Origin: a virus
Reading direction: 5' to 3' (one strand)
IMG/VR virus record: IMGVR_UViG_3300018049_000053
Location: 1-38,399 of that record
Length of the DNA: 38,399 bases
Below, piece by piece: positions 1,328 through 38,399 of the stretch (the first letter of the stretch is position 1; each line of letters starts with the position of its first letter). The notes under the pieces were generated by a model. It had not been told where the DNA came from, ran no database searches, and was given only the letters and a program-made list of their open reading frames with translations. A program made the translations under genes and the position numbers.

Positions 1328-1356
1328 ATTATAATATACGCAGATAATTTTGTCAA
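1328..1356 (-). promoter_or_regulatory. consensus sigma70 promoter for gp55
   Basis: Minus-strand TTGACA (1356-1351), 17 nt, TATAAT (1333-1328): both boxes match the consensus exactly. The predicted start near 1321 leaves a leader of about 15 nt containing the GGAG ribosome site. Its -35 box shares base 1356 with the divergent late promoter box. Confidence 0.85.
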
Positions 1357-19300: not shown

Positions 19301-22300
19301 TATCAAGAAATTGACGCATTTGATACATTAGAAGACTTTGGAGATACAATATCAATATCTGCTGATGGAACTATGCTTGCAATAGGCTCTCCTTCTGCTG
19401 ATGAAAACAAAGAAGGACTTGTGTATGTTTATTTGCAAGAAAATGGAAACTTTAATCTAATACAAACTTTAAAAAGTACAAACGCTTCTAGAAAAGAAGC
19501 ATTTGGAAGCCAAATTGATTTTGATGGCAATACATTATTTGTTAGTGCTAACAAATCTTATTCAGATGAAATAACTATTTTTGATCAAGGCAAAACAACA
19601 TTTGACAACGAATTTACCGAATTTAAAAATAAAATAATTGGTAACGGTGTAATTTATGTTTATGATAGAGTTAACAACGGCTTAGTATTTGGACAAGTTA
19701 TTGATTATAATAATACCGAAGCAAGGTTGTTTGGAGAAACTATCATTGCAAGAAATAATCATATCTATACAGGTATGAGAGACTTTGTTAATACAGATAA
19801 TAAAGTTGGCGCAGTATTAGATTATAGAAGAGACTCTAATAACAGAGTTTGGACTAAACATAGAACTCCAAATAAATTACCTGATCTAGAAAAGATTAAA
19901 AAAGTATTTTTATATGACAATGATAAAAATGAAATTATAACTCATTTAGATTACATTGATCCTATCCAAGGTAAAATTGCTGGACCAGCAGAACAAGAAC
20001 TTAGATATAAAACTCCTTTTGATCCTGCTTCATATAATATCGGTGATAATACAGTTAATGTTAGCAGTATAGATACCTGGGGAACATATCAAGTTGGCCA
20101 ACTATGGTGGGATTTAAGCACAATTAAGTTTTTTAATCCGCATCAAGGTTCTAAAACTTATTCAGGAAATACTTGGAATAAATTATTCCCTGGATCAAGT
20201 GTAGATGTTTATGAATGGGTCGAAACTGAATTAACACCAGGACAGTGGGACGCACTGGCAGCAACTGAAGAAGGTCAGTCTTTGGGTGTAACAGGAAGAT
20301 CAAAATACGGTGATAGTGTTTTTGTAACTAAAAAGGTATATGATTCGATTGCACAAGCATTCTTTCCTAAGAACTATTTTTGGGTTAAAAATAAAACAAA
20401 TGTTCCTGATGTAGAATGGAGATCAATTAGTGCAATTGATGTAGCAAGATTTATTGAAGATCCTGCCGCAATGAAACACGAATATATTACTTTTACCGAA
20501 GACGATGCATTTATTTTATGGAACTGTAATTCTTTTATTAAAGGAAAAGACACTGTATTGAATATACAATACTGGACAAGTTCTGACAAAGACAGTAATA
20601 TACACAATCAATATCAAATTTTAACAGAAGGATTATCAACAAGTAAGCCAACACCAGATATTGAACGTAAATGGTTTGACAGTCTTATAGGTTATGATCA
20701 GCAAGACAGACCTGTTCCTAATCCTGAATTGTCGCCAAGACAGCGTTACGGTATGCTAGATAAACCAAGACAAGGGTGGTTTATTAATAGAATAGAAGCA
20801 TTAAAGCAATTTATAGAAAGAACTAACAGTGTTCTAGAGAAAAATCTAATAGTTGAATCGAGAGACATATCTCCATTGAATGCACTAGATGATTATCCAA
20901 GTGAAATAACAAGGAAATATGATCTAGTAGTAGATACTGACATTGATTTACAGTTTGTTGGTACTGCTCGAGCCGATCGAGCAGAACTTTCTCTAGTAAT
21001 TGAAAACGGAAAAATACAACGTGTTGATATTTTAAATTCTGGTAGAGGATATAAAGTAGTTCCGACTATTGAAATATTAGGAACTGGATCCGGCGCAGAA
21101 ATTGAACTAACAATTAATAATATAGGACAAGTTACATCTGCTACAGTTTTAAATAGCGGAAATAATTATTCTAATAATGCAAGAATTATTGTAAGAAGAT
21201 TTACAGTACTTGTTAAGTCTGACTCAACAATTAGAGGCAAATGGGCACTATACGAAAGAATTGACGAAACATCTAGCTGGAATAGAATATCAAGTCAGGC
21301 ATATGATGTAACTAGTTTTTGGAAATATAAAGACTGGTACGACACCGGGTATAATGAATTTACAGACATTAATTATGTTGTAGATTATAGTTATAACTTA
21401 CAAGGGTTAGATGATAACTTAGGTGATATTGTTAAAATTAATAATATTGGATCAACAGGATGGATATTATTAGAAAAAATTGACGAACAACAAACAGTTG
21501 ATTATACAGTAAATTATAAAACTATAGGTCGACAAAATGGCACAATAGAATTTTTACCTGAGCTTTACAATCTAGAAGGAAGCCAAGTAGGTTTTGATGC
21601 ACAAAGTTATGATACAAAATTCTTTGATAATCAGCCTGTAGAAGAAATACGTGTAGTTCTTAATACTTTAAAAAATAATATTTTAATAACAGATCTAGAA
21701 GTAGAATTTAATAAATTATTCTTTGCAAGTTTACGTTATGTATTTTCAGAGCAAGGTTATGTTGACTGGGCATTTAAAACATCATTTATCAAAGCTCAAC
21801 ACAATGTAGGTGAGTTGAAACAAAAACTAACATATCAAAATGATAACTTAGCTAGTTACCAAGATTATCTTGAAGAAGTTAAACCTTACAAGACAAAACT
21901 TAGGGAGTATGTTTCAAACTATAATAATATAGAAAATTCTTCTAGCATATTAACTGACTTTGATTTACCTCCTGCATTTGATAGTAATGATAATAGAATT
22001 AAAGCACCAAGTATCAAAGTTTTTGATGAAAAGTTAGTAGGAACAGCAGAAAACATTAATTTGTATCCGAACAAGTTTTGGCTCGATAATGTAGCATTTG
22101 AAGTAGTTGAAATAGGAATAGCTGACCCAGGCGAAGGTTATATAACTGCTCCTATTATTACTATTGAAAGCGAATCAGGTTCTGGAGCAAAAGCATTAGC
22201 ATCTTTAGGACCTAACGGTTCTATTTCATCAGTTAAACTTGTATCTAATGGTTCTAATTATTTAACTTTACCTAAAGTAGTAGTAAATGGATCATTAAAA

Positions 22301-25300
22301 GACAACGGTCGACCAGCAGTATTAGCCGCTAGAATTGGAAATTCTTTAATTAGAAGTATGCATTCTGTTATTAAATTTGACAGAGTAAGCGGGTCATTTT
22401 TAATAACAGAGCTAGATTTTAGTGAAACATTTATAGGCACAGGATCTAAGACAGAATTTGACTTAGAGTTTCCGATGGATATGAGAACTAATACTATTGA
22501 AATTACAATTAACGGAACAGCAATACTAAGCAGTCAATATACATATGAAAATGTACTTGATACAACAGTTAATTATGATAGATATTTTGGTAGAATTAAG
22601 TTTTTAACTCCTCCAGGAAATGCAAGAGAAATTGTTGTTAATTACAAAAAGTCAATAGACTTATTAACAGCTTCAGATAGAATAAATTTATTCTATAATC
22701 CAACTACTGGACAAATAGGTAAAGATATTAATCAATTAATGGACGGTGTTGATTACGGTGGTGTACAAGTTAAGAGTTATGGATTTGCAGGACCACAAGG
22801 TTGGGATAGTGATAATTGGTATGATAATGCTTGGGATTTATTTGACGAATCATTTGATGAAGAATCATTTTTACTAGACGGTTCTACGTTAACATTCCAG
22901 CTATCAAAACCTCTCGCAGAAAATGTTCAATATAATCTTTATATCAATGGAATTCGTATTGATGACGCTGAGTACGATGGCACAACTAATACTTCAAATC
23001 TTCAAAATACTCGTGCTATTATGGCATCACCTGAAGGTGATGGTGTAACTACAATAGTAACTATTGATAATGAAATTGGTTATGAAGAGTTTATAGAAAA
23101 ATATGGAACTGATACAAACTTACTTATAATTCGTAGAAGTACAACTGACGGGTCACTTCAGTTAAATCAAGAAAGTTATGATACTTCCTTAGGCGGTGGC
23201 GACTTAGCATATTCAACTGCCAAAGGTTTAGATGCAAACGAAATAACTGTTGATGGCGATGGATTTGTAACAGCTACAACTTCAAAAGGTCCTGAAGAAG
23301 TTATACCAGGACAAGTAATGGATACATTAGATATTAATGTATATGAAAGACCATCTGAAGGCTCTAGCCTAATTTATAATACAAATCATAGAGGGGACGG
23401 AGTAACTACTGATTTTGCTATTGAAGGAATTCCATTTAGTTTTGAATCAATGTTTGTAAAAGTAGATTACGAAATTTTAACAGAAAGATCAGATTTTATC
23501 ATTGACTACAATAATAAGAAAATTAAATTTTTCACAGCACCTAGTAATGGTGCAGTGATTCAGTTATTATCAATGGGAGTATCTGGAACACAAGTTTTAG
23601 ATTATGATTCTTTTGTAGCAGATGGAACATCTTCAGAGTTTTTAACAAATGTTAGATGGGACAACAATAGGTCTGCTTATGTAACAGTAAATGGCAAAAA
23701 TAAACCGTTTGAACTTTTTGAATCTGATAGTGGATATGCAGTTAAAGGAAATGTTGTTATTAAGTTTGTTGAACCTCCAGTTGCAAACACAAAAATACAA
23801 TACGCATTATTTGATTCAAAAGTACAAACATTCAGCCAAGTAACAGTTGACAAATTAATAGCAGATGGAAGTTCTACAGTATATGAAATTAGTCAAGCAC
23901 CGTTTGATCAAGAACCGTCGGCTTTTTATACTATTGTTACAGTTAACGGAAAAGTACTAAATCCTGGTTATAGTCAAAAATTTGAAGTAACAAGTGATAG
24001 AGAATATCAGTTGAAAAAATGGCAAGTTCCAGTTGGAAGTTTAAGCGGAGACAGAATTGAAGTTTATCTAAATGGAAGAAAATTAAGTTTCTTACAAGAA
24101 TGGACTTATGAAGGTTCAGGTGCGTTTGACCCTAACATTGCTGATGACGCACAGCCGGGAAGTACTATTGTATTAAATAGAGGTGTTGGAGTAGCAGGAG
24201 ATAGTTTAACAGTTTATTTAATGAGCGACGGCGAATATAGATTTGGATACTTTGAAATAGGTGAAGATTCAAGTGATACTTTTGTTCAAACACCGAGCAG
24301 TATACATTTTGACGAAGTATATGCTGATGGTTCAGATATTGTTGTATATCAATTTAGTAATCACGATAGTCAGGGCATAGAGCGTATGAATTACGATGTA
24401 ATAGAACGCACTACGATGACTCCGGGTACTGAAGGATATTCAGAATTTAGACAATTGAAAAATGGCTTAATTAAACTAAGAGCCGAAGCGTTTGATGTTT
24501 CTTATGTTTGGGTATCGTTAAATGGCAAATGGTTAATTCCTACAGCAGATTATATTTTAACTGAAAATAAGCAATACATTAAATTTGTAACACCAATTAA
24601 TGATAATGATGTAGTCGATATCATACAGTTTGCTAATGCTCCTATATCAAATAAATTTGGTTGGAAAATCTTTAAAGATATGACTAATAGATATTTCTTT
24701 AAGAGATTAGAGCCAGGCACTATTGAATTAGCAGAAGATTTAAGATACTATGATAAAACTATTACAGTCAATGACGGGTCTTTATTAACTTCTCCACTAG
24801 CAAAATCTAAAATTCCTGGAGTTATCTTTATTGAAGGCGAGCGTATTGAATATTTTGGCAGAGACGGAAATGTACTAAAACAAATTAGAAGAGGAACTTT
24901 AGGAACAGGAGTTAAGTCAGTTTATGATGCAGGAACATCAGTAATTAGACAAAGTCAAGAATCTGTTATTCCTTATAATGAAGATACTTTAGAAATTGTT
25001 TCAACATCTGGTGTATATAAAGATATGTCTGAAGAATATTCTAATAGTCCGTTAATAACTTTTGATAATCTTACATACACATTTAACAATAATTCTGCTT
25101 TTCCACTAGGTGGATTAGTTAATGGAGCTGTATTACAAGAAGGAGTAATAAAAGGAAGTGGGTTTAGATCTGTTGCAAAAGTATTTGTTCAAGATATTGA
25201 GTGTACAACTACTTTTGTAAGTACAACTGAATTACGATTTGTTCCACCAAAATTAGATGTAGGAGCGTACGATCTAGTTATTTACAACCCTAGAGAAGAA

Positions 25301-26062
25301 AGTCCTATTGAGATTCCTTCTACAGCATTAGTAGTTCCAAAAGTAGTTGAATATTTACAGATATTATTACCATTTGCTCCGCTACCAAACCCTGCGACAG
25401 AGTTTAATTGGTATAAAGAAACTGTTGATTTGCCTGTAACAGAAATAATTCCAGGAAGATATTATCGTGTTAAGAGTTTAGGTACTACTAATTGGTCTGA
25501 GGTAGGGTCTTCTGCTACTATAGGCTATGAGTTTAAAGCAACTGCTACAGGTACAGGTACAGGAATAGTCGAAGACTTTTCTAGTATACCATACGAATAT
25601 TGGGAAGGAATGGATATAGATATGTTTATTAGTGGTAGACGTTTACGTAAAAATCCACTAACATATTTTGATCCGGCTATTGGACAAGATAGTGTTAACG
25701 GAAATGTTACTCTTGAAGCAGAATATGCAGTAAATAGAGCAATCGGAGCATATGTAAGATTAACAAATCCGCCAGAACCAAATGTTAAAATTATTATTTC
25801 TAAGAAAACAGGGTATTCTTGGAATGAAATTAATAATATTTCCAACGGTCCTTACAAACTTAATTTTAAAGAAACCGTTGATTATAGCAAAGGAGAGGTT
25901 GTTTTATACAACGGAAAATTCTACGAAGCATTGCAAGATATTTTAGCAAGTTCTTGGGATGAAACAAAATGGAAAAATGTATCAATTATGAGTCCTTTAG
26001 GAAAATCTGACACACAGATTGCAAAATTCTTACGTAAGACAAGTATTGATCTACCGCGATAA
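10361..26062 (+). CDS. giant multidomain virion protein, in the gp7 position
   Basis: One uninterrupted frame encodes 5,233 residues, directly after gp6 where T4 has gp7 (1,032 residues). The N-terminus (PKYFRTEANSKFLSSTIDQL) resembles starts of large structural proteins in marine T4-like phages. Visible modules: carbohydrate-binding (CBM5/12)-like units near residues 1431-1477, 1695-1737, 2215-2239, 2854-2900 and 5173-5207; FG-GAP-like propeller blades at about 2115-2205 and 2935-3150; two 'GSGY' beta modules at about 3541-3607 and 3917-3980; 'DG' beta modules from about 4025 to 4760; an IPT/TIG-like domain near 4900-5000; and a small NWSEVGS/GTGTG motif near 5030-5069. No catalytic motif was recognised. 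A peripheral baseplate or host-contact role is inferred. TAAGG lies 10 nt before the ATG. Confidence 0.8.
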   Translation: MAYENDQTEFPLPGSNSSDRKSENHLPKYFRTEANSKFLSSTIDQLLKPGVAEKLSGYLGRKTAKSYVAGDNYIPDVSKQREDYQLEPAQIIKDDIGNVEYYKDYLDLVNQISNFQGTNNNHNRINEQEFYTWNPHINWDMFTNFREYYWLPAGPQTVTIPGEQKEITSTYTVTLQNNGDSYSYLFTPDGATPNPSLKLYRGVKYRFEINTPGLPLTFRTQRTLDDQFLLAEGISAQEVEDGVIELELNAGTPNEIFYVSNNDINLGGIIRVANITDATFIDVTSEIIGKKYYTTRDGWSLTNGMKVRFSGDVTPSQYANSEWYIEGVGDKITLVSDTDVEVSFPVGIDLEVPFDAEEGFDRLPYGEAVGYPKNKDYIVINRSSIDGNFWSRYNRWFHKEVIELSASINNQPADIDQTARANRPIIEFDAGLKLFEFGTISKPVVDLIDTITTDAFSNIEGKLGYNIDGVTVTQGMRILFTADPDPLVYGKVFQVEFINFKGSGTAGQISLKEVADTDPVKDENVLIISGEKYSGSIWYYNGEKWLQGQEKTAVNQAPLFDVYDSDGNSFSDSSVYDATTFKGTKIFSYKEGSGANDSVLGFPLSYRSIDNVGDILFNFDYNTDMVDYQVETQSQQVEVASGYLRKYSTRTDYIQEGAWIKANELSNQSVIIQYENDNTRTVYPINCFDKSAFIDDLEIKVFVNNKILRQGIDYQVLNTADKFKAITLEKSNIGDIIRIKCNSSTPKNDNGFYEIAPNLERNPLNANVQDFTLGEVSDHVSTIVENIPNFEGIFPGSTNLRDLPNQSIFGRKFIKHSSPLNLAMYHLLDKDANIVKSLRFARREYGKFKRQFLEIAETLGFEGPVKQHVDKILSEIVKDKTNKLPFYFSDMLPFGAAITTRITVEDPDAQFFALSQPFEYNKINTKAVSVYINNEQLLYKRDYEFNENGFLIITKEKTFNDVIEIYEYESTNGSYVPPTPTKLGLYPKFEPRIYTENSYQTPTQVIEGHDGSIIKAYGDFRDSLILELETRIFNNIKVDYDPNLFDINDFIKGSFRKQGLTRQVINKTMTTDFIQWLQLVNEDYTKNEYVETGNGFTYNYANMTGPGGTQLPGFWRGIYKEVFDTDRPHTHPWEMLGFSIKPNWWETVYGPAPYTNENLLLWEDLETGTIREPGKPFVFNQKYKRPGLKNFIPVDSNGELLDPSSANVPLKFENLKINSTYEFGDYAPVELAWRKSSEYPFALLTSFAVNQPAKLFASGFDRSRQVRNTIGHLVYAETGHHITLKDIVFPNTPDDDSEVLTLGLVNYIAGYMSSNVTSNFKIYNERLKKIKNSLACKLAGYTDKSKFKLILDSRTPVNKSNVFIPEENYQIILNTSSPIKTVNYSGVIIEKQPSGFIIRGYNNDNPQFSYYPTFKTSKDPIINVGGISEPYSQWEAGQLYREGTNVEYTDDYFKVVSTHTSTATFDNTKFVRLPELPLEGGKTAVFSKKFLTDDVSTLPYGSVLNTIQDVVDFLLGYGRWLEDQGFKFDYYDGEEKILSNWTNSAKEFLFWTTQNWKAGSVISLSPAAEQVKLETEYSVVDNVFDNFYGYSILRADGKKLVEEFTKTNRTDPNKFTMRPRNTIDGVYAINLPIVQKEHILLIDNFTVFGDVIYDQPTGYRQERIKVLGYRTDTWDGSLNIPGFIYDDAKVLEWKSWTDYPIGALVKYKEFYYTAKTKISGEQNFDRNKWSVLSEKPQSGLLTNFEYKTNQFADFYDLDSDNFDIEQQRFAQHLIGYQNREYLSNIINDDVSQYKFYQGMIQDKGTKNALVKLFDVLSAADKESLEFYEEWAIKEGQYGASDGFEEVEFRLDENKFKISPQPFELVTNNNNDSGDLIYRIKPFEVFKKPNNYNHKPIPVKENLQRTFTKDAGFVHQEDVTFILNNYDSILSLNVTDLRNEEYIWIGTEKQSWNVYQHVLSDFVINKIEGNSEAVAIGDPDQNQFKVSITTSFDDGSIKVGDIIGIYDIITTNRTSVNNSQIKSQTTNDVQGFFKVLEVGTDNLTIETTQTINDVVDCRGLLTRFESVRVSDLNSANVLTEKEINEGNLVWLDDDGTGNWAVLKNSQAYKFLQKTVSDTTSDIGYGKSIDADNRNTVLAVGSPNEDNGKVYIYTRGIDSQNWQYAQTLELDATFSDDEHKFGSSLGISADGDYLVVGSPEASNVKTKFRGNFENETNYQNGESVKYSDQLWEAVVDIKGAVEALPFTTFGSIAEVYQKNNVFFNEETFNSILTGNYPFENIQPPEDPVDHFLVRAPVDQYDATGPGDTVYFDWYRNSTVNLIDTGVLEREVFDGEYSSVINESVLESGLVIQKKIDAILYLSTYVNRPTLDAQVDGPSVFGYATNIYEYDGALSIYVEGSFGSWPTEGALYLESGEYVGQFTKRAPVETIDTSDDLGGYWLFNAPSTYYVTDVTDDTGKALAVYNIVPQGKSNIDARGGNIYDQNNPVTFESIPQWIQNGTGNSLNDFNSYIRNLSYQGTPGAGGLTNDPRFTDLFVVRAPKSVTDVVQAGDTVNLEIFQFPDADNNLIADLRTTGLTVEDTNKAHTLYDNWDGFINYTLKGSFEPRIGQFVRDSVTLATAQVVFYQRDGLNATVFIKNNTPGTLGNWQKGLEFGEASVIQMLGTAGDPDPIFAVTQELGDVRSVSIGNDSLGIGGLLVFQRTAGQFTEIPANEYVVGLEYLVYRDDTNFGIPTEPNIPSIQNFDWRPIYKIPADAEGYQIAGNNQGMFSVYERSLSSNYTKIGTFIVPEQEENLRLGSNIKIRKNKDLYKTFIGCQGEGNSTLPGRIYFYNYGTTPDGDFYNWELAKNKNYKGEFSPEKDYFIDDIIFLDGNFYKAVTNIAGNPDDPDDYRFAFDPLDWERIAYDGAGYTGIDYVGYIPNDTDFVPNSDSTFKLSQVGLEEFGTVFDVDERGEVLIVTAKYDSDNVNKVIVYRALNGNYLKYQEIDAFDTLEDFGDTISISADGTMLAIGSPSADENKEGLVYVYLQENGNFNLIQTLKSTNASRKEAFGSQIDFDGNTLFVSANKSYSDEITIFDQGKTTFDNEFTEFKNKIIGNGVIYVYDRVNNGLVFGQVIDYNNTEARLFGETIIARNNHIYTGMRDFVNTDNKVGAVLDYRRDSNNRVWTKHRTPNKLPDLEKIKKVFLYDNDKNEIITHLDYIDPIQGKIAGPAEQELRYKTPFDPASYNIGDNTVNVSSIDTWGTYQVGQLWWDLSTIKFFNPHQGSKTYSGNTWNKLFPGSSVDVYEWVETELTPGQWDALAATEEGQSLGVTGRSKYGDSVFVTKKVYDSIAQAFFPKNYFWVKNKTNVPDVEWRSISAIDVARFIEDPAAMKHEYITFTEDDAFILWNCNSFIKGKDTVLNIQYWTSSDKDSNIHNQYQILTEGLSTSKPTPDIERKWFDSLIGYDQQDRPVPNPELSPRQRYGMLDKPRQGWFINRIEALKQFIERTNSVLEKNLIVESRDISPLNALDDYPSEITRKYDLVVDTDIDLQFVGTARADRAELSLVIENGKIQRVDILNSGRGYKVVPTIEILGTGSGAEIELTINNIGQVTSATVLNSGNNYSNNARIIVRRFTVLVKSDSTIRGKWALYERIDETSSWNRISSQAYDVTSFWKYKDWYDTGYNEFTDINYVVDYSYNLQGLDDNLGDIVKINNIGSTGWILLEKIDEQQTVDYTVNYKTIGRQNGTIEFLPELYNLEGSQVGFDAQSYDTKFFDNQPVEEIRVVLNTLKNNILITDLEVEFNKLFFASLRYVFSEQGYVDWAFKTSFIKAQHNVGELKQKLTYQNDNLASYQDYLEEVKPYKTKLREYVSNYNNIENSSSILTDFDLPPAFDSNDNRIKAPSIKVFDEKLVGTAENINLYPNKFWLDNVAFEVVEIGIADPGEGYITAPIITIESESGSGAKALASLGPNGSISSVKLVSNGSNYLTLPKVVVNGSLKDNGRPAVLAARIGNSLIRSMHSVIKFDRVSGSFLITELDFSETFIGTGSKTEFDLEFPMDMRTNTIEITINGTAILSSQYTYENVLDTTVNYDRYFGRIKFLTPPGNAREIVVNYKKSIDLLTASDRINLFYNPTTGQIGKDINQLMDGVDYGGVQVKSYGFAGPQGWDSDNWYDNAWDLFDESFDEESFLLDGSTLTFQLSKPLAENVQYNLYINGIRIDDAEYDGTTNTSNLQNTRAIMASPEGDGVTTIVTIDNEIGYEEFIEKYGTDTNLLIIRRSTTDGSLQLNQESYDTSLGGGDLAYSTAKGLDANEITVDGDGFVTATTSKGPEEVIPGQVMDTLDINVYERPSEGSSLIYNTNHRGDGVTTDFAIEGIPFSFESMFVKVDYEILTERSDFIIDYNNKKIKFFTAPSNGAVIQLLSMGVSGTQVLDYDSFVADGTSSEFLTNVRWDNNRSAYVTVNGKNKPFELFESDSGYAVKGNVVIKFVEPPVANTKIQYALFDSKVQTFSQVTVDKLIADGSSTVYEISQAPFDQEPSAFYTIVTVNGKVLNPGYSQKFEVTSDREYQLKKWQVPVGSLSGDRIEVYLNGRKLSFLQEWTYEGSGAFDPNIADDAQPGSTIVLNRGVGVAGDSLTVYLMSDGEYRFGYFEIGEDSSDTFVQTPSSIHFDEVYADGSDIVVYQFSNHDSQGIERMNYDVIERTTMTPGTEGYSEFRQLKNGLIKLRAEAFDVSYVWVSLNGKWLIPTADYILTENKQYIKFVTPINDNDVVDIIQFANAPISNKFGWKIFKDMTNRYFFKRLEPGTIELAEDLRYYDKTITVNDGSLLTSPLAKSKIPGVIFIEGERIEYFGRDGNVLKQIRRGTLGTGVKSVYDAGTSVIRQSQESVIPYNEDTLEIVSTSGVYKDMSEEYSNSPLITFDNLTYTFNNNSAFPLGGLVNGAVLQEGVIKGSGFRSVAKVFVQDIECTTTFVSTTELRFVPPKLDVGAYDLVIYNPREESPIEIPSTALVVPKVVEYLQILLPFAPLPNPATEFNWYKETVDLPVTEIIPGRYYRVKSLGTTNWSEVGSSATIGYEFKATATGTGTGIVEDFSSIPYEYWEGMDIDMFISGRRLRKNPLTYFDPAIGQDSVNGNVTLEAEYAVNRAIGAYVRLTNPPEPNVKIIISKKTGYSWNEINNISNGPYKLNFKETVDYSKGEVVLYNGKFYEALQDILASSWDETKWKNVSIMSPLGKSDTQIAKFLRKTSIDLPR
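17219..18160 (+). repeat. diverged internal duplication in the giant protein
   Basis: Residue 2287 begins DHFLVRAPVD and residue 2532 begins DLFVVRAPK. Each is followed by a GDTV strand (PGDTVYF and AGDTVNL). Further on, each copy has a GSF motif (VEGSFGSWP near 2397, LKGSFEPRI near 2600). The copies start 245 residues apart, but the later motifs are about 203 apart, so the duplication is old and has unequal insertions. Both copies lie inside the segment that interrupts the propeller. Confidence 0.5.
22433..24640 (+). repeat. array of six DG-type beta modules in the giant protein
   Basis: A short motif recurs at residues about 4025 (IGTGSKTEF), 4172 (LDGSTLTF), 4345 (GDGVTTDF), 4419 (VADGTSSEF), 4500 (IADGSSTVY) and 4654 (YADGSDIVVY). 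Most copies continue with a VNG or NG turn about 20-30 residues later, and several then show a hydrophobic IxF-xxPP strand. Spacing is 75-175 residues. This looks like tandem beta-sandwich modules, typical of an extended fibre. Confidence 0.55.
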
Positions 26063-30720: not shown

Positions 30721-32211
30721 ATGGCATATACAATAGACAAGTACAGCACAGGTCAACTAACAGTAATCGAAGACGGTACAGTTGATCAAACTACTGACTT
30801 AAAATTAGTAGGTAAAAACTACGCAGGATATGGTGAGATACAAAATGAAAATTTTGTATACTTGCTAGAAAATTTTGCAGGATCTGCATCTCCACCGAGA
30901 GCAATAGCAGGTCAGCTTTGGTTTGATACAGGAAACTCGAAACTAAAGTTTTATGATGGATTTCAATGGCGTACATCAGGCGGCGCAGAAGTTAACACCA
31001 ATACACCAACAGGTCTAAAAGAAGGTGATTTATGGTGGAACGGACAACAGCTTAAGGTATATGATGGAACAAATTTTGTACTTATTGGTCCACAAGCCGC
31101 AGGCGCTGGCCAAACTCAAATTGTAAGCCGAACAGTAAACAACAATCAAGGCGGTAGTAACAATATTATTACAGCAGTTGTTAACGACGAAGTTGTATTT
31201 ACTATTAGTTCAAATGAATTTACTATTGATTCAACAGATGCTGAAAATGCGATATCAGGATTTGATAGAATACGCCAAGGCATTACCCTTAAAAACACCT
31301 TAGCTGCCAACTCAGGTGTTACTTCAGGCGATTGGAGATTATGGGGAACAGCATCTAACTCGGACAAACTAGAAGGAAAGACAGCATCTGATTTTGTAAC
31401 ATCAGCTGGTGCAAGTTTTTCAAATCTTGCATCTTTTGCAGACGCTGGATTACAAATAGGTGATTCGGGTGATTTTGCTCTAAGTGTAGAAAGTTTAACA
31501 ACTAACGCAGTTATTGCTAATAACGTTGGTACACAAATTGTTATTAATGTTAAAGATGATGGCGGTATTATTAGAAATCCAATAAGATTCTTTTCAGATA
31601 GTGTAAACCCAGGGTTTGATACTGGTACAAATGTAAGATCAGTTACATTGGGAGAAGACGATCGTCGTTGGGAAAGAGTTTATGCAAACGAGTTTGACGG
31701 ACTAGCTTTAACAGCAAAAGCACTTAAAGATGTTGGAACACAAGTTGAATATTTACCCGCACTAACAGCTGGAATAAACACAGTTGCATTACGAGACGGA
31801 TTGGGCGATATTTACGCTAATGTATTCCAGGGAATTGCTTCAGAAGCAAAATATGCTGACTTAGCAGAAAAATATACTACAGACGCAGACTATCCAGTAG
31901 GAACAGTTATGGCAGTAGCAACACAAGGCACAGCCGAAGCAAGATCAGCTAACAGAGGAAGCATTGCAATTGGTGTTGTATCAGCAGAACCAGCATACTT
32001 AATGAACAGCGAAGCAGAAGGACAAGCAATTGGTCTTAAAGGTCGTGTTCCTGTTCGTGTAGTTGGCACAGTTAACAAAGGTGATGCAGTTTATGTAGAT
32101 GATAACGGTTGTGCAAGCACAGCAATTAACGGTGGTTGTTTGGTAGGGATTGCATTAGAATCAAATTCGTCAGAAGAAGAAAAATTAGTCGAGTGCGTAC
32201 TCAAGGTATAA
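30721..32211 (+). CDS. tail fibre-like protein, third of three, with distinct C-terminal domain
   Basis: This 496-residue protein has the shared N-terminus (YLLENFAGSASPPRAIAG, QLWFD, GDLWW, VLIGPQAAG). The C-terminal part from about residue 361 begins YANVFQGIASEAKYADLAEKY and continues with PVGTVMAVATQG, GVVSAEPAYLMN and GDAVYVDDNGCAS. This C-terminal block recurs at the ends of marine phage fibres. It resembles self-contained C-terminal fibre domains, some of which are intramolecular chaperone-like or peptidase-like, but I see no clear catalytic residues. It has its own late promoter and a strong ribosome site. Its stop codon lies inside the next late promoter. Confidence 0.65.
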   Translation: MAYTIDKYSTGQLTVIEDGTVDQTTDLKLVGKNYAGYGEIQNENFVYLLENFAGSASPPRAIAGQLWFDTGNSKLKFYDGFQWRTSGGAEVNTNTPTGLKEGDLWWNGQQLKVYDGTNFVLIGPQAAGAGQTQIVSRTVNNNQGGSNNIITAVVNDEVVFTISSNEFTIDSTDAENAISGFDRIRQGITLKNTLAANSGVTSGDWRLWGTASNSDKLEGKTASDFVTSAGASFSNLASFADAGLQIGDSGDFALSVESLTTNAVIANNVGTQIVINVKDDGGIIRNPIRFFSDSVNPGFDTGTNVRSVTLGEDDRRWERVYANEFDGLALTAKALKDVGTQVEYLPALTAGINTVALRDGLGDIYANVFQGIASEAKYADLAEKYTTDADYPVGTVMAVATQGTAEARSANRGSIAIGVVSAEPAYLMNSEAEGQAIGLKGRVPVRVVGTVNKGDAVYVDDNGCASTAINGGCLVGIALESNSSEEEKLVECVLKV

Positions 32212-32214
32212 ATA
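32207..32214 (+). promoter_or_regulatory. T4 late promoter, exact TATAAATA
   Basis: TATAAATA matches the T4 late consensus exactly and is followed by C. It overlaps the stop codon of the third fibre gene (TAA at 32209-32211) and begins 35 nt before the ATG at 32242. A start near 32220 leaves a 22-nt leader holding AGGA (32231-32234). Confidence 0.8.
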
Positions 32215-32241
32215 CGTACATAATAGATATAGGAAACGACA

Positions 32242-33147
32242 ATGGCAGTAAATCCTGGCTCAAAGATTACAGCGGCAAACTATAACACTTTATTCAGTAG
32301 AGTAAATAACCTACTCGGTGTAGGTTCCGGACAGTCAGGATATGGACAAACACCAGTTGCTGATTTCGTTGCTGTTTCAGAAACAGTAACAGCAGAACAT
32401 ATGGAATTGTTAAGAACTGATCTAAATAGAATAAATGTGCATCAGACTGGTGCATTATCTAATCTTGCAGAAATTAGTCCAGGAGAATCAATTGGTGCTA
32501 ATAACATTGCCGGAGATCCAACAAAAGGATTTAACGCTTATTTAGGTCTAATGGATGTGTTAGAACCTTTAAAAGACAGAGTTGATGGAACACAAGTAGA
32601 AGTACAAACTGCTATCACTAGCGAAAGGTATAGTCCTTGGAATGGTAATCCTATACATCAATTTACTGCAACCTTTGATAACTCAGATCATAGACGTGCA
32701 TTTTTTAATGCTGGCGGCGAAATTCATATTTCTGCAGAAATTTCAGGTGATAATTCTCTTAAAGGCCAAGACTGGAATACAATGTTATCTAATATGGGAA
32801 CAATTAAATTTGGAGCCAATACTACTGTAAAAACAGGAAATGGCGGTGTTACTCAACCTATTGGTAATTATGATTTAACATCTTCGTTCCAAGAAATTTT
32901 TGAAAGGCAAGGTCAAGATAACGATTATGCCGAAAACAGATACTATATTTTTGCTAAAGAAACTAGCGACAAAGCAATACAATTTAGAATAGAATTTGTT
33001 GATAATGACGCCGGCGATCCAAATGTTGACGAATCTATTTTAGGAACATTACAAAGTACAGTAAGACAACAGCGTCCTTCGGGGGCGTATGTTTCAGTTA
33101 AATCAGCATCATATTCTAATCAAGTTGACTTATCCGGCGGAGCGTAA
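32242..33147 (+). CDS. putative virion protein A of a related pair
   Basis: This 301-residue protein has no recognised enzyme motif. It starts MAVNPGSKITAANYNTLFSR, like the next protein. The best-conserved block is at about residues 150-200: RRAFFNAGGEIHIS, then LKGQDWNTMLSNMGTIKFG. It is followed by DYAENRYYIFAKE and a segment rich in acidic residues. The protein looks beta-rich. It sits between fibre genes and the early-type operon and has the only exact late promoter in the window, so it is probably made abundantly late. Virion or fibre-associated structural protein is the best guess. Confidence 0.55.
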   Translation: MAVNPGSKITAANYNTLFSRVNNLLGVGSGQSGYGQTPVADFVAVSETVTAEHMELLRTDLNRINVHQTGALSNLAEISPGESIGANNIAGDPTKGFNAYLGLMDVLEPLKDRVDGTQVEVQTAITSERYSPWNGNPIHQFTATFDNSDHRRAFFNAGGEIHISAEISGDNSLKGQDWNTMLSNMGTIKFGANTTVKTGNGGVTQPIGNYDLTSSFQEIFERQGQDNDYAENRYYIFAKETSDKAIQFRIEFVDNDAGDPNVDESILGTLQSTVRQQRPSGAYVSVKSASYSNQVDLSGGA

Positions 33148-33150
33148 CAG

Positions 33151-34239
33151 ATGGCTGTAAACGTTGGCGACATTATTAATTCATCGGATTATAATGATCT
33201 TGTTGATATAGTATGGTCTGTAATGGGCGATACATACGGACAAAATTTTACCTTAACAAAAGTTACAGGAAGTTCTACAAAAGACATTGATAATGCAGAA
33301 TGGAACACACTTAAAACACTTGTAGATCGTGCAAGCCAACACCAAACTAATGCAAATGCAGGCATTGGTTCACAAATCGAAGGTAGAATAGTTGGTGCAG
33401 ATGCAAGTGGAACTAGTGTTACCCGAGTCGATTCCGGCGGAGTAGTAACGTTTACACAGGTTAGTGCAACTGCTAATAAAGGTGTAAACGATTATTTAAA
33501 CGCTGTAACAGATATTAATACAGACAAGTATACTTTCTCCAATTCCGAAATGACTGAAACATCAGACGGTACAAACGGTCAAACAACTAGAACAACTTCT
33601 TGGGGAGGCGAAGGCCAGCCTACTGGTATAGATTGTCAATTTGACATTGAATTCCCTGGCGGATATGAATATATTGATTCTAACGGAAACACACAAACTG
33701 CTACCGGAGCACAACACGCTCAACATTTTTTTAATGCTGGCGGAAGTATTAATATTAGCGGCGAAGGAAATGGAACTAACATTAAAGGTTCTGACTGGGC
33801 AACTATGTTATCTAATATGGGTGCTGTTAAACTTGAAAGAACTAGAACTATTACCACAGGATCAGGAAATCCAGCAGACGGAAATCATAATTCAGACGAA
33901 TTAGGTGGCAATGACACAATAGGTTATAACACTCTTAATAATAGTTTGCAACAGATTTTTTGGCGCGGCGGCGGCGATGTTGATAGTGACTATGCAGAAA
34001 ATAAGATAAAAATTTACGCCAAGAAAAATGCTACAGGCGACACTGTATCATTTTATCTTCAATTAATGGACTTTGATACGGGAGATCAGACAGGTACTGG
34101 ACCACCAGAAGACGAACCTGTTCAAGGTACTTTCTCGATAAAAGTAGATTATCGTCGAGCAACAGGCTCAAATGTTGAAGTTGATGCACCATACGATGCT
34201 AATGTTTCAAACGAGCTATTCCAGGGTAGCGTTACCTAA
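33151..34239 (+). CDS. putative virion protein B of a related pair
   Basis: This 362-residue protein is a paralogue of the preceding one. Shared features are the start (MAVNVGDIINSSDYNDLVD), a block at about residues 190-240 (QHFFNAGGSINIS, IKGSDWATMLSNMGAVKL) and DYAENKIKIYAKK. It is longer mainly through the middle segment (about 115-190), rich in Thr and Gly. GGAG lies 8 nt before the ATG, and the gene starts 3 nt after the preceding stop, so both should be translated from one late transcript. Structural role inferred from position. No enzyme motif seen. Confidence 0.55.
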   Translation: MAVNVGDIINSSDYNDLVDIVWSVMGDTYGQNFTLTKVTGSSTKDIDNAEWNTLKTLVDRASQHQTNANAGIGSQIEGRIVGADASGTSVTRVDSGGVVTFTQVSATANKGVNDYLNAVTDINTDKYTFSNSEMTETSDGTNGQTTRTTSWGGEGQPTGIDCQFDIEFPGGYEYIDSNGNTQTATGAQHAQHFFNAGGSINISGEGNGTNIKGSDWATMLSNMGAVKLERTRTITTGSGNPADGNHNSDELGGNDTIGYNTLNNSLQQIFWRGGGDVDSDYAENKIKIYAKKNATGDTVSFYLQLMDFDTGDQTGTGPPEDEPVQGTFSIKVDYRRATGSNVEVDAPYDANVSNELFQGSVT

Positions 34240-34257
34240 AATAACTTCAAAAACAAC

Positions 34258-34286
34258 TTGACTTACTAGACTTTTTGTTATATAAT
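34258..34286 (+). promoter_or_regulatory. sigma70-type promoter for the glycosyltransferase/radical SAM operon
   Basis: TTGACT (34258-34263), 17 nt, TATAAT (34281-34286), with one mismatch in the -35 box. A start near 34293 gives a very short leader of about 13 nt consisting mostly of the strong ribosome site AGGAGG (34295-34300), 5 nt from the ATG. No late box is seen here, so this operon appears to be expressed by the host polymerase, unlike the structural genes before it. Confidence 0.8.
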
Positions 34287-34296
34287 AGTAGTCTAG
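34266..34296 (+). repeat. inverted repeat spanning the -10 box and reaching the ribosome site
   Basis: CTAGACT (34266-34272) and AGTCTAG (34290-34296) are perfect 7-bp arms separated by 17 bases that contain the -10 box. As DNA this could be an operator. In RNA read through from the late structural genes it could form a hairpin that covers the first two bases of AGGAGG. Transcripts starting at the promoter would lack the left arm. Confidence 0.5.
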
Positions 34297-34305
34297 GAGG
34301 TTCTT

Positions 34306-34650
34306 ATGGATGAACGTTTAGAAAAAGCATTAGATTTTTCAAATTATATGGTTACATTAAATAACCAGCGTAGATTAATTCACGAACAATTTTTAGAAAA
34401 TTGTGTACACTATTTAAATGGTGGAAAGTTTTCTGTAACAAGAGAACTAATTAATTTTTGTCATATGCTTGTTTCAACAGGTCAAGAAGATGTTGTGTTA
34501 ATTGACGATAACAACTCACCTGTTAAGGTTGATAATATTGAAGATTTTTTAAGTGAAATATTAGATATCTATTTTACAAATTCTAACGAATATTTAGAAA
34601 AATTTAGTAGTCTTAAAAAGAAAAGAATTAAGGATTTAGTTAATTTATGA
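34306..34650 (+). CDS. small conserved phage protein of unknown function
   Basis: This 114-residue protein is charged and probably helical, without signal peptide or membrane segment. A central motif is VVLIDDNNSPVKVDNIEDFL followed by EILDIYF and NEYLEKF. Similar short proteins occur beside glycosyltransferase-like genes in marine T4-like phages, by memory, with unknown function. It is the promoter-proximal gene of the operon, has the best ribosome site in the window (AGGAGG), and overlaps the next gene by 4 nt (ATGA). Its strong expression signals suggest an early regulatory or binding role, which is speculation. Confidence 0.6.
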   Translation: MDERLEKALDFSNYMVTLNNQRRLIHEQFLENCVHYLNGGKFSVTRELINFCHMLVSTGQEDVVLIDDNNSPVKVDNIEDFLSEILDIYFTNSNEYLEKFSSLKKKRIKDLVNL

Positions 34651-35513
34651 CCAAGGGTGTATTACTTTTTGCACTCAACAATCTTAACATAGATTATGTA
34701 AAACAAGCAATTTACTGTGCAAAAAAAATTAAAAAACATCTTAATCTTCCTGTTGTACTAGCAACAGATAATGTCGATTACGTTTTAAACAAATATCCTT
34801 TTTATAAAAAATACATCGACGATATTGTAAAGTTAAACTTTTACGAAACAACTCAAACTAGAAGATTTCGAGACGGAACTATGTCTGAAAGAAATCTTAC
34901 TTGGAAGAATCATCAAAGAGCGTCAGCATATGAAATCTCTCCATTCGACGAAACAATAGTGATGGATACAGATTTTATTGTTGGAAATAATATTCTTCTT
35001 AATGCGTTTGATACAGATGATGACTTTTTAATTTATAGGCATATTGAAGATTTAAATCAAGATCGTCCTGACGAACACCGATTTAATAAAATAAGTGACA
35101 GAGGTCCAGATATGTACTGGGCAACAGTTTTTTATTTTAAGAAAACAGACTTTACAAAATCTTTTTTTGATTTAGTTGAACATATTAGAGATAATTGGCA
35201 TTTTTATAGATTAATATATCAAATACCTCAAAGTAATTTTAGAAACGATTATGCATTTAGTATTGCAATACATATTTTTAACGGGTTTCAACGTACTAAC
35301 TGGCCTAAGATGCTACCAGGTAAGTTATGGTTGACAAGTGATGCCGATGTGTTAATTAAAACAGATAAAGACAATGAGCATTACGTATTTTTACTTGATA
35401 AAAAAGACTGGCCAGGACATTATACATTAGGCGCCATTGAATCTGCAAATGTACACATTATGAATAAATTTTCTTTAGATAGACATATTGATGAGGTATT
35501 CAGTAATGAGTAA
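34647..35513 (+). CDS. GT-A-type glycosyltransferase-like protein 1
   Basis: This 288-residue protein looks like a GT-A fold nucleotide-sugar transferase. The N-terminal Rossmann-like half has GVLLFALNNLNIDYVKQA and PVVLATDNVDYVL. The metal-binding DxD motif is D107-T-D109 in ETIVMDTDFIVG. The second half includes DMYWATVFYFKK and a closing aromatic segment. It is most like GT8-type enzymes in layout, but the family is not certain. The next gene is a paralogue. The substrate could be phage DNA, a virion protein or a host glycan, and cannot be told from sequence. Overlaps on both sides indicate operon translation. Confidence 0.65.
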   Translation: MTKGVLLFALNNLNIDYVKQAIYCAKKIKKHLNLPVVLATDNVDYVLNKYPFYKKYIDDIVKLNFYETTQTRRFRDGTMSERNLTWKNHQRASAYEISPFDETIVMDTDFIVGNNILLNAFDTDDDFLIYRHIEDLNQDRPDEHRFNKISDRGPDMYWATVFYFKKTDFTKSFFDLVEHIRDNWHFYRLIYQIPQSNFRNDYAFSIAIHIFNGFQRTNWPKMLPGKLWLTSDADVLIKTDKDNEHYVFLLDKKDWPGHYTLGAIESANVHIMNKFSLDRHIDEVFSNE

Positions 35514-36342
35514 AGGTTTTTGTCTATTAGCACAAAATAATGAAAAAACAGATTATGTCCGTCAAGCATATGCGTTAGCACTAAGTTTACACAAATATAA
35601 TACTGGACAAAAAATAAGTTTGATAACAAACGATAAAGTTCCAGACGAATGGCAGGGACCTTTTGATAAAATTATTTCTATTCCGTGGTCAGATGATGCC
35701 CAAGATGAAGATTGGAAAATACAAAATAGATGGAAAGTTTATCACGCAAGTCCGTATGATGAAACAATAGTACTAGAAGCAGATATGTTGATTCTAAGTG
35801 ATATAACACATTGGTGGGATGAACTAGGAAAAAGAGAGTTATTTTTTACTAGCAATGTAAGAACTTACAGAGATGAACTAGTTACAAATAGGTTTTATAG
35901 AAAAACATTTGATGCAAACAATTTACCTAATCTTTATAGTGCATTGCATTACTTTAAAAAAGGCGACAAAGCAAAAGAGTTTTATAATTTATTAGAAGTA
36001 ATAGTTAATAACTGGCAATTATTTTACGGAAAATATGCTCCAAACGAATATCAAAAATGGTGCAGTATGGATGTGTCTTGTGCTCTTGCAAGTAAGATTA
36101 TAGGAAACGAATTAGACATTACTGATCCGAATAGTTATATTACATTTACACATATGAAAACTCGTCTACAAGGATGGCATCAAGTACCTGAAAGATGGAC
36201 AAATGTTATTGGTAGATATTATAAAAAAGATGGTAGCTTATTGCTAGGGAATTATATTCAAAAGGGCATACTGCATTATGTAGAAGATATGTTTTTGTCC
36301 GAAGAAATTATAGAGAAGTTAAAAGATGGCACTGTATATTAA
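35506..36342 (+). CDS. GT-A-type glycosyltransferase-like protein 2 (paralogue)
   Basis: From the ATG at 35506 it is 278 residues. An in-frame ATG at 35488 exists, but GAGG at 35493-35496 lies 9 nt before 35506, and MSKGFCLLAQNN aligns with the start of the preceding protein. It shares the general plan: LLAQNNEKTDYVRQA, then ASPYDETIVLEADMLILSD in place of ISPFDETIVMDTDF. The DxD position therefore reads E91-A-D93. LYSALHYFKKGD matches the MYWATVFYFKK region of its neighbour. ExD variants can still bind metal in some GT-A enzymes, but activity is unproven. It overlaps the preceding gene by 8 nt and the next by 17 nt. Confidence 0.65.
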   Translation: MSKGFCLLAQNNEKTDYVRQAYALALSLHKYNTGQKISLITNDKVPDEWQGPFDKIISIPWSDDAQDEDWKIQNRWKVYHASPYDETIVLEADMLILSDITHWWDELGKRELFFTSNVRTYRDELVTNRFYRKTFDANNLPNLYSALHYFKKGDKAKEFYNLLEVIVNNWQLFYGKYAPNEYQKWCSMDVSCALASKIIGNELDITDPNSYITFTHMKTRLQGWHQVPERWTNVIGRYYKKDGSLLLGNYIQKGILHYVEDMFLSEEIIEKLKDGTVY

Positions 36343-36898
36343 CTTTAACGAAAAAACAGGTAAAATTGTTAAATTAACAAATGTGTTTGATGACACAACA
36401 CCTTCTATTGAAGTTGATAGAACTACTTATGTAGATTTTATATCTGGTAAAACTAATACAAAAGATTATTTAATATTGCCTACAGGAAAAGAAAATATAA
36501 AATACGAGCTACAATTAAAACATAGTGGAGTTGATTTATTTGATGTAGATAGAAGCATACATAGAGTAGAAAAAGTTACTAGTGTTGACAATAATAACGC
36601 ATTTATTATTATACAAAATACTGTAAATAAAACTTGGTCGTTTAAATTAACCGACGGGTTAAAAAATTTACTTCAGGAAACTCCGTATTATAAAGATAAA
36701 GAATATAATATTTACATCACTAGTCAAGATGATCCTAATATTTTATTAGATACAATTCATTTTCAATTATGGAATGTTATGTATAATGACAAATTTGTAC
36801 TTACAGATCAAAATAAAGAGGTTGCATCACAGAGTGAAGTGAGTGTATACTGTGGTAAAATATTCGAAAACTATTATCATATACAGGAAACAGAATGA
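36326..36898 (+). CDS. conserved hypothetical protein within the glycosyltransferase operon
   Basis: This 190-residue protein is not recognised. It is hydrophilic, without signal peptide, membrane segment or catalytic motif, and predicted to be beta-rich from alternating patterns such as KYELQLKHSGVDLF and TWSFKLTDGLK. It ends with VSVYCGKIFENYYHIQ. The start overlaps the preceding gene by 17 nt with only a weak purine-rich ribosome site (GAGAAG), which suggests coupled translation. The end overlaps the next gene by ATGA. Its place between glycosyltransferase-like genes suggests an accessory or substrate role, but nothing in its sequence proves it. Confidence 0.55.
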   Translation: MALYINFNEKTGKIVKLTNVFDDTTPSIEVDRTTYVDFISGKTNTKDYLILPTGKENIKYELQLKHSGVDLFDVDRSIHRVEKVTSVDNNNAFIIIQNTVNKTWSFKLTDGLKNLLQETPYYKDKEYNIYITSQDDPNILLDTIHFQLWNVMYNDKFVLTDQNKEVASQSEVSVYCGKIFENYYHIQETE

Positions 36899-37788
36899 AA
36901 ATACAAGTAGCTGAACAAGATATTATTTTTCTAAGTTATGACGAACCAAATGCAGAAAAAAATTATGCAGATTTGTGTAGTAAGATTCCCTGGGCAAAGC
37001 GTGTTCACGGAGTATACGGGAGCGATGCCGCACATAAGGCTTGTGCAGATTTAAGTGAAACAGAGTATTTTGTTACTGTAGATGCAGACAACATTGTTGA
37101 TCCTAAATTTATGAATGTAGTTGTTGATACAGAAGAGCTTGGATTAACACCAGACCACGTTTTTAGTTGGTGCGGCAAAGTTCACGTTAACGGACTGATG
37201 TACGGTAACGGCGGACTAAAAATGTGGACACGTAAATTTGTTCACAATATGAAAACACACGAAGCAAGTGAAGACGGAGATGAACGAGGAAAAGTCGAAT
37301 TCTGTTTTGACAACAAGTATTACCAGTTTAACGAAAACTACAGCGAATCTTATACTAATGCAACACCTTGGCAGGCTTGGAGAGCTGGCTTTAGAGAAGG
37401 CGTTAAGATGAGTTTAGATCAAGGAGCTAAAGTAGACGATTTACGTAGTGTATGGTGGCAAAATTATCAACGCCTTCTTATTTGGAGTCAAATCGGTGCA
37501 GATGTAAAAAATGGTATGTGGAGCATACTAGGCGCACGTCAAGGTTGTTATATGACAAACTGTACAGATTGGGACTATGCCAATGTGCGTGACTTTGAAT
37601 GGCTAAACAACTTTTGGGAAAGTGATGTAAAAGATTTAAACCCAGACGAAGAATCAGAACGTTTGGGATTTGAAATACTAAAAGGCACAGGTGTTGATAT
37701 GTCTACAAAGCCATTAGATGCAGAACAAAGTAAATTCTTTAAAGCAGTATATCAAAATACACCAAGGATTATAAAGCGAGCTAAATGA
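36895..37788 (+). CDS. glycosyltransferase-like protein 3 (GT2-like)
   Basis: This 297-residue protein has a GT-A/GT2-like N-terminal half: DIIFLSYDEPNAEKNYADL, then IPWAKRVHGVYGSDAAHKAC and the DxD motif D63-A-D65 in FVTVDADNIVDP. The C-terminal half is Trp-rich (TPWQAWRAGFREGVKM, RSVWWQNYQRLLIW) and is conserved in similar proteins of marine T4-like phages, by memory. It is unrelated at the motif level to the two GT8-like proteins upstream. AGGAAACAG precedes the ATG. It overlaps both neighbours by ATGA-type junctions. It probably transfers a sugar or related group. Donor and acceptor unknown. Confidence 0.65.
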   Translation: MKIQVAEQDIIFLSYDEPNAEKNYADLCSKIPWAKRVHGVYGSDAAHKACADLSETEYFVTVDADNIVDPKFMNVVVDTEELGLTPDHVFSWCGKVHVNGLMYGNGGLKMWTRKFVHNMKTHEASEDGDERGKVEFCFDNKYYQFNENYSESYTNATPWQAWRAGFREGVKMSLDQGAKVDDLRSVWWQNYQRLLIWSQIGADVKNGMWSILGARQGCYMTNCTDWDYANVRDFEWLNNFWESDVKDLNPDEESERLGFEILKGTGVDMSTKPLDAEQSKFFKAVYQNTPRIIKRAK

Positions 37789-38399
37789 GCAACGAAGAAA
37801 AAATACGCATACTAGAAGAAAAGCGTGATAAAATAAACAAAGTAAGTTGCAGTTTCTGTACGGCTAAATGGTTGCAAACTACATTATATCTACAAAACGG
37901 GTATAATCACAGTTGTCACCATCCTGCTCCGCATAAAATACCCTTGAAAGAAATCGAAAAAGATCCTGGCGCACTACATAACAGTCAATATAAAAAACAA
38001 CAACGCCTTGATATGATATTAGGTAACAGACCAAAAGAGTGTGATTATTGTTGGAATATTGAAGATTTAGATAAAAATTATTTTAGTGATAGGCATTATA
38101 AAACAGCAGATACTTGGGCCTGGGATAGATTTGAAGAAATTGCAACTAGCGATCCTGGAGAAAATGTATATCCTAGTTATTTAGAAGTTAGCTTTTCAAA
38201 TGCTTGTAATTTTGCTTGTGCATATTGTAGTCCAGAAATTAGTAGTAAGTGGATGGAGGATATAAAACAGAATGGAGAATATCCTACAAAACACGGAAGT
38301 CATAATTTAACCTATTTAGAAAAAGTAGGAAAAATGCCATATAGGCATAATGATGATAACCCTTATGTAGAAGCATTTTGGAAATGGTTTCCTGATGCA
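37785..38399 (+). CDS. radical SAM protein, twitch-type (partial, runs off right edge)
   Basis: The visible 205 residues contain the radical SAM cluster motif C141-xxx-C145-xx-C148 in FSNACNFACAYCSPEIS, which binds a 4Fe-4S cluster and S-adenosylmethionine. Before it lie two CxxC pairs (C22/C25 and C86/C89) and C44. The second pair is within GNRPKECDYCWNIED, a feature of phage and marine radical SAM proteins annotated as twitch-domain enzymes. The gene starts at an ATGA overlap with the preceding glycosyltransferase-like gene. It probably modifies a sugar, nucleotide or peptide. The rest of the core barrel is outside the window. Confidence 0.8.
   Translation, partial: MSNEEKIRILEEKRDKINKVSCSFCTAKWLQTTLYLQNGYNHSCHHPAPHKIPLKEIEKDPGALHNSQYKKQQRLDMILGNRPKECDYCWNIEDLDKNYFSDRHYKTADTWAWDRFEEIATSDPGENVYPSYLEVSFSNACNFACAYCSPEISSKWMEDIKQNGEYPTKHGSHNLTYLEKVGKMPYRHNDDNPYVEAFWKWFPDA

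Follow-up and report, generated by a model that had tools for sequence, protein, structure and literature searches.

What would a T4-like phage do with a row of glycosyltransferases and a radical enzyme encoded directly behind its tail-fibre genes? The question is raised by the window analysed here, the entire IMG/VR record IMGVR_UViG_3300018049_000053 of 38,399 bases, which is a fragment of an uncultivated aquatic T4-like phage; its right edge is the contig end. At this edge (34306-38399), six open reading frames (ORFs) on the plus strand, A-B-C-D-E-F, follow the tail-fibre genes directly and overlap each other by 4-17 nt, so that the six overlapping genes behind the tail genes described in an earlier, sequence-only reading are borne out by the ORF coordinates (Table 1). 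Genes A to E form a fixed five-gene core, a real unit that can be traced in dozens of phages, and F encodes a radical S-adenosylmethionine (SAM) enzyme. We tentatively favour the reading that a phage biosynthetic island begins here, one that remodels a host surface glycan and starts to do so before late transcription.

Relatives were IMG/VR loci compared gene by gene, and conservation was counted on diverse subsets of them. The gene-order comparison proposed in the sequence-only reading was run on these loci and shows that A lies immediately 5' of B in 47 of the 50 loci with room for it, that C lies immediately 3' of B in all 50, and that E is found no more than 3 kb away in 46 of 47. A tail gene (u301/u362) stands directly upstream of the core in 47 loci, and a recognised radical SAM gene follows E within 2.6 kb in 27 of 39. 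Between C and E, nearly every relative has a D-like protein, many of the copies being beyond BLAST detection. The genes of the A-E core do not, in these relatives, occur independently of each other; relatives of E and F do exist without A-D in bacteria.

The operon has a promoter of its own. The sigma70-type sequence TTGACT-N17-TATAAT upstream of A matches at 11 of 12 positions with a spacer of 17 nt and is among the two best in 12.4 kb. The number of such matches in the scan is not significant by itself (63 found vs 53.6 expected), but the promoter of A is taken to be real because it is conserved among relatives in comparison with controls. A match of at least 11/12 precedes A in 34 of 45 diverse relatives and one of at least 10/12 in 41; the spacer is 17 nt in 36, and the end of the -10 element lies about 16-29 nt from the ATG of A in nearly all relatives. 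At the threshold of 11/12, matches were found upstream of u301 in 1/64, B in 0/51, C in 1/48, D in 0/26 and F in 0/29 sequences, and in 0.4% of shuffled ones. The exception is the E set (10/60), which takes in the downstream paralogue E2; E2 has its own sigma70-type promoter in two large relatives. The preceding tail genes carry a late-promoter box, TATAAATA, which occurs once in the window (9.0 expected), 27 nt 5' of the tail gene u301, and again at the matching place 5' of u301 in both large relatives. No TATAAATA was found upstream of gene A. Thus, the tail genes and the operon are under different promoter classes, and conservation in relatives gives strong support to the earlier claim that a sigma70-type promoter, and no late box, serves the operon. 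The late sigma gene gp55 has a perfect sigma70 promoter, TTGACA-N17-TATAAT (1328-1356, minus strand), of the same class as that at A, and likewise has one in the two large relatives (one with TTGACT). Judging from promoter class, the operon is probably expressed before the late genes. An inverted repeat, CTAGACT-N16-AGTCTAG, surrounds the -10 element (34267-34296); by eye it was not seen in relatives.

B and C are GT8-like paralogues, as had been proposed from the sequence. The C profile matches glycogenin (E-value 4e-8) over the N-terminal 100 residues or so, and the match of the B profile to the C profile (99.8%) identifies B and C as paralogues. The B profile has no direct match among PDB sequences and is tied to GT8 via C alone, and the single sequences of B and C have no Pfam match. 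The metal-binding DxD motif of B (D107, D109) is present in 50 of 51 diverse relatives and the [D/E]xD of C in 44 of 48. At the C terminus, where GT8 enzymes have an HxxGxxKP-type metal motif, B has invariant H270, N273 and K274, and C has H256 and Y257; the pattern is not identical. Translation of C is assigned to the ATG at 35506, 8 nt inside B, where the ORF list had placed an upstream TTG. Gene A gave no convincing match in family searches, and D67, P72 and Y89 are invariant in its alignment of 26 sequences.

The structural model of E (pLDDT 92) has a GT-A fold. Its best match is 6p61 (Z 9.9, root-mean-square deviation 3.3 over 139 residues), and its matches at Z 8-10 are tied among many glycosyl- and nucleotidyltransferase families, so that no single family can be named for it. 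E had been called GT2-like; the GT-A fold with a DxD motif holds, and membership in GT2 is not established, since the fold does not single out that family. The DxD residues D63 and D65 are invariant in 32/32 diverse relatives. E has no Pfam, NCBIfam or PDB sequence match, and its match to a PHROG glycosyltransferase is weak (E-value 0.04). B, C and E have thus retained their DxD-type motifs, and the core shows no loss of catalytic residues across the family. No membrane segment is predicted in A-F.

Of the core genes, D is conserved least, and its divergence resembles that of the adjacent tail gene: close pairs have a median identity of 0.48 for D and 0.45 for the tail gene, vs 0.70-0.86 for A, B, C and E. 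Its structure model is confident, with an immunoglobulin-like C-terminal half (best Z 4.7). Fold searches gave no PDB match at E<0.001 and returned three uncharacterised viral proteins, and the D profile gave one chance match alone among PDB sequences. A role as tail-fibre chaperone, prompted by the N-terminal YVYYDxxTGKI motif, was rejected for want of family support. In some phages D reaches about 450 residues, with CBM5/12-like insertions (L067:8658-9992; L072:8634-9992) whose E-value of 3e-4 is under the Pfam cut-off and a hint only.

F is cut off by the contig end after 205 residues, and a close full-length relative has 460. The fragment matches NCBIfam NF033640, the N-twitch radical SAM family, with an E-value of 1.4e-42; its score of 146 bits against a cut-off of 170 covers part of the profile since the contig ends, and the full-length orthologue in the relative L002 reaches 324.7 bits. 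The CxxxCxxC iron-sulfur (Fe-S) motif reads CNFACAYC in the window and is present in 28/28 diverse full-length relatives. Both the family match and the motif agree with the twitch-type radical SAM enzyme of the sequence-only reading. The operon opens an island of about 25-30 kb in two large relatives (186 and 201 kb), where a PP-loop ATPase-like gene, the E paralogue E2 and genes judged by eye to be SGNH-like accompany radical SAM genes that number about ten or more. Nearly all island proteins are without membrane segments. In L002, a gene of the sugar-nucleotide epimerase family is inserted in the operon.

The same enzyme families are found in bacteria. A GTDB scan with the E profile returned phage contigs binned in metagenome-assembled genomes (MAGs), which have tail genes and A-B-C upstream, and true chromosomes. 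Bdellovibrionota chromosomes encode E and E2 together with matching counterparts of the island's radical SAM proteins (rSAM-alpha, rSAM-beta and rSAM-gamma) and an M190-like protein, in clusters of radical SAM enzymes with GT-A proteins (L217, L218, L222, L223, L225, L226). Of 191 Bdellovibrionota genomes, 12 have E and 12 have rSAM-beta, with 10 having the two together (Fisher p 3e-13, or 4e-12 when the Bdellovibrionales match G179, a phage contig in a MAG, is left out). These p values overstate independence because the genomes are related, and several genomes show physical clustering. In a tree, E and E2 separate into two groups, both of which contain phage as well as Bdellovibrionota members; the pair is therefore old and was retained by phages and Bdellovibrionota alike. 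The bacterial clusters resemble the phage island in their families and in some shared neighbours, such as E2 adjoining rSAM-beta, but they are without A, B, C and D, variable in order and chromosomal. Elsewhere, Rhodobacterales relatives of E adjoin a GT1 gene, and in one Bdellovibrionota chromosome a relative of E lies beside GT2-like genes (by eye from the sequence).

Early remodelling of a host glycan is the reading that agrees best with a location in the tail-fibre region, a conserved promoter that is not of the late type, and a set of enzymes that comprises radical SAM proteins and soluble GT8-like and GT-A transferases. The epimerase gene in the L002 operon, the relatives of E beside GT1 and GT2-like genes and the absence of membrane segments from A-F also favour it. 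Cytosolic GT8 enzymes of the lipopolysaccharide (LPS) core likewise have no membrane segments. In such a mechanism, host sigma70 RNA polymerase would transcribe the operon from its own promoter, probably before and independently of gp55-driven late transcription. With nucleotide-sugars as donors, the soluble GT8-like B and C and the GT-A protein E would act as sugar transferases, and a sugar or carrier may be altered by F and the other N-twitch radical SAM enzymes encoded downstream. A glycan (LPS core, O-chain or another surface glycan) would thereby be built or remodelled at the cytosolic face of the host inner membrane, and the infected cell surface would no longer suit competitors of the phage. 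D, fast-evolving like the tail protein, may confer acceptor specificity. In a wider version, which seems to us quite improbable, aquatic T4-like phages and Bdellovibrio-like predators, both of which live at the cost of Gram-negative cells, would share a single, hitherto undescribed enzyme system made up of E, E2, the N-twitch radical SAM enzymes and their partners, and it would alter the envelope of the occupied cell so as to keep out rival predators.

The points that weigh against host-glycan remodelling are best considered together with its main rival, in which the enzymes act by glycosylation and radical chemistry on the products of the adjacent upstream genes (tail-fibre or other virion proteins), or on D, and thereby tune receptor binding or protect the virion. 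The constant place directly 3' of the u301/u362 tail genes would fit virion modification as well. The interval from the tail gene to A showed no terminator, and late transcription may therefore run on into the operon. The peptide S-glycosyltransferases SunS and ThuS are among the nearest folds of E, tied with others, and twitch/SPASM radical SAM enzymes often act on peptides. D keeps pace with the tail gene in its evolution, and the two show weak covariation (partial r 0.22, Mantel p 0.0002; the value is 0.39 in a linear model and 0.22 once nonlinear terms are added); because B covaries with the tail gene about as strongly, this is not taken as proof. Furthermore, the island showed no recognisable flippase, polymerase or lipid-carrier enzyme, N-twitch radical SAM enzymes are not known to have an assigned function, and the timing, the host surface glycan as target and the exclusion of competitors are inferred rather than demonstrated. 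Virion glycosylation has a precedent in mycobacteriophages, as cited in PMC12619734. However, the conserved promoter is of an early, host type, unlike the late type at the tail genes, and the E, E2 and radical SAM families are found in Bdellovibrionota chromosomes without tail genes, so these families do not in general act on a phage tail protein. Virion modification is a credible minority explanation.

The island could also make a natural-product-like small molecule, diffusible or cell-bound, or a modified peptide, directed at the host or at competitors; B, C and E would attach its sugars, and radical SAM enzymes would carry out several of the steps. The wealth of radical SAM genes and the PP-loop ATPase-like gene in the islands of the two large relatives would suit such a product, as would the clustering of the same families in Bdellovibrionota and the asparagine-synthase-like and PP-loop genes close by. 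However, no precursor peptide, exporter or carrier was recognised (no systematic search was made), and the size and variability of D exceed those of a typical precursor, which makes this explanation unlikely. Hypermodification of phage DNA bases is barely credible. Phage glycosyltransferases can act on DNA, and the island proteins include one weak QueC-like (E-value 0.0055) and one weak QueE-like match, but the cluster is situated in the tail region, the E, E2 and rSAM-alpha, -beta and -gamma families also occur in bacterial chromosomes, the relative of C is a glycogenin-type GT8 enzyme and no known DNA glucosyltransferase, and no base-modifying partner was recognised (again without a systematic search). 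Of the three targets proposed from the sequence, the host surface glycan is therefore favoured, a protein or peptide is kept as a rival and phage DNA finds no support.

The combination had been thought to correspond to no described pathway, yet its kind is known: glycosyltransferase and radical SAM genes occur in the tail-fibre island of aquatic T4-like phages. The host recognition cluster (HRC) of pelagimyophages and cyanomyophages contains GT8 and radical SAM genes in a tail-fibre island (Zaragoza-Solas et al. 2020, PMC7029224), and its GT8 genes in pelagimyophages have likewise been interpreted as remodelling host glycans. The HRC and the present island are both large, adjoin tail-fibre genes of T4-like aquatic phages and hold several GT8 and radical SAM cassettes. 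However, the HRC is described as hypervariable and non-syntenic, whereas the first five genes are fixed here and have a conserved sigma70 promoter. The HRC type is bounded by VrlC and the neck gene gp14; the present island was recognised by its tail-fibre, GT8 and radical SAM genes in the window, which ends with the contig, and in relatives. The T4-like environmental genome TARA_ERS488813_N000010 has 12 radical SAM genes (Nishimura et al. 2017, PMC5332604). It comes from a marine phage of about 180 kb, but the section concerned treats the genes as Fe-S metabolism only and describes neither their order nor any glycosyltransferase partners; the likeness is by description, not by sequence. The exact core with its own conserved non-late promoter was not found in the literature searched, nor was the clustering of E, E2 and at least three island radical SAM families in Bdellovibrionota chromosomes, whose radical SAM/GT-A clusters have no description there; both are regarded as new. 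Such islands are common in uncultivated aquatic phages and usually called variable cargo, and here a core can be defined. Part of the system is also present in culturable bacterial groups. The long-standing question of the target of the phage enzymes is thereby opened to testing, and a first clue to what N-twitch radical SAM enzymes do is provided.

Other counterparts are more distant. Serotype conversion of the gtrABC type employs a membrane flippase and membrane-bound glycosyltransferases, whereas A-F have no membrane segment. Moraphages (PMC12619734) were set aside; they have several glycosyltransferases, and no radical SAM gene is mentioned for them. In a syntenic place, immediately behind the tail genes, the cultured Sinorhizobium phage Phosso carries a cupin gene, unknown genes and a number of radical SAM genes (L212:21269-33794); it was rejected as a close counterpart because the radical SAM genes are mostly of other types and just one is weakly similar to an island protein. 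The Vibrio phage K566 is an isolate with four N-twitch-like radical SAM genes and two Pfam GT8 genes (OZ196521 and OZ196593 are K566 and K567, the latter known here solely as a matching hit). In contrast to the present phage, K566/K567 are without the A-E core, the genes are not beside tail genes in the stretch examined, and radical SAM identity is 21-26%. The K566 stretch (L214:9863-20325) also has a possible GT4-like gene and an annotated PagP, and K566 is a possible laboratory model.

Table 1 Coordinates of the operon, its signals and the late box that precedes it
Feature	Position	Strand	Description
Late-promoter box TATAAATA of preceding tail genes	32207..32214	+	Sole copy in window, boundary marker
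Sigma70-type promoter TTGACT-N17-TATAAT of operon A-F	34258..34286	+	Conserved in relatives
Ribosome-binding site AGGAGG of gene A	34295..34300	+	From sequence
Gene A	34306..34650	+	114 aa, small conserved phage protein
Gene B	34647..35513	+	288 aa, GT8-like glycosyltransferase; DxD, C-terminal H270..N273-K274
Gene C	35506..36342	+	GT8-like glycosyltransferase, B paralogue
Gene D	36326..36898	+	190 aa, fast-diverging, conserved slot; predicted C-terminal Ig-like beta-sandwich
Gene E	36895..37788	+	297 aa, GT-A fold glycosyltransferase-like; DxD (D63, D65)
Gene F	37785..38399	+	N-twitch radical SAM enzyme, 5' 205 codons, cut at contig end

Besides the operon, the window contains a gp55-type late sigma gene, baseplate and tail genes and tail-fibre-like genes. 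Its gp55 and a 204-residue tail gene product are nearest, with 43-57% identity, to those of jumbo T4-like isolates such as PA5oct, Sinorhizobium phage Phosso and Agrobacterium phage Atu_ph07. A tblastn search of A, B, C and E against 50,697 phage records, in which records of or near the source genome itself were possibly not included, gave no match, and blastn of 30721-38399 against the phage collection gave no near relative; the absence of tblastn matches points to a lineage without a close relative in that collection. The phage-tail contigs binned within GTDB MAGs (L135, L136, L138, L141, L150, L157, L159, L221) bear the names of Neomarinimicrobiota, Rickettsiales, Gammaproteobacteria, Bdellovibrionales, Verrucomicrobia, Pelagibacter and even Pacearchaeota, and they are likely binning errors or infecting phages. 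Between the baseplate and tail-fibre genes of the window, a single gene of 5,233 codons extends over 15.7 kb (10361-26062).

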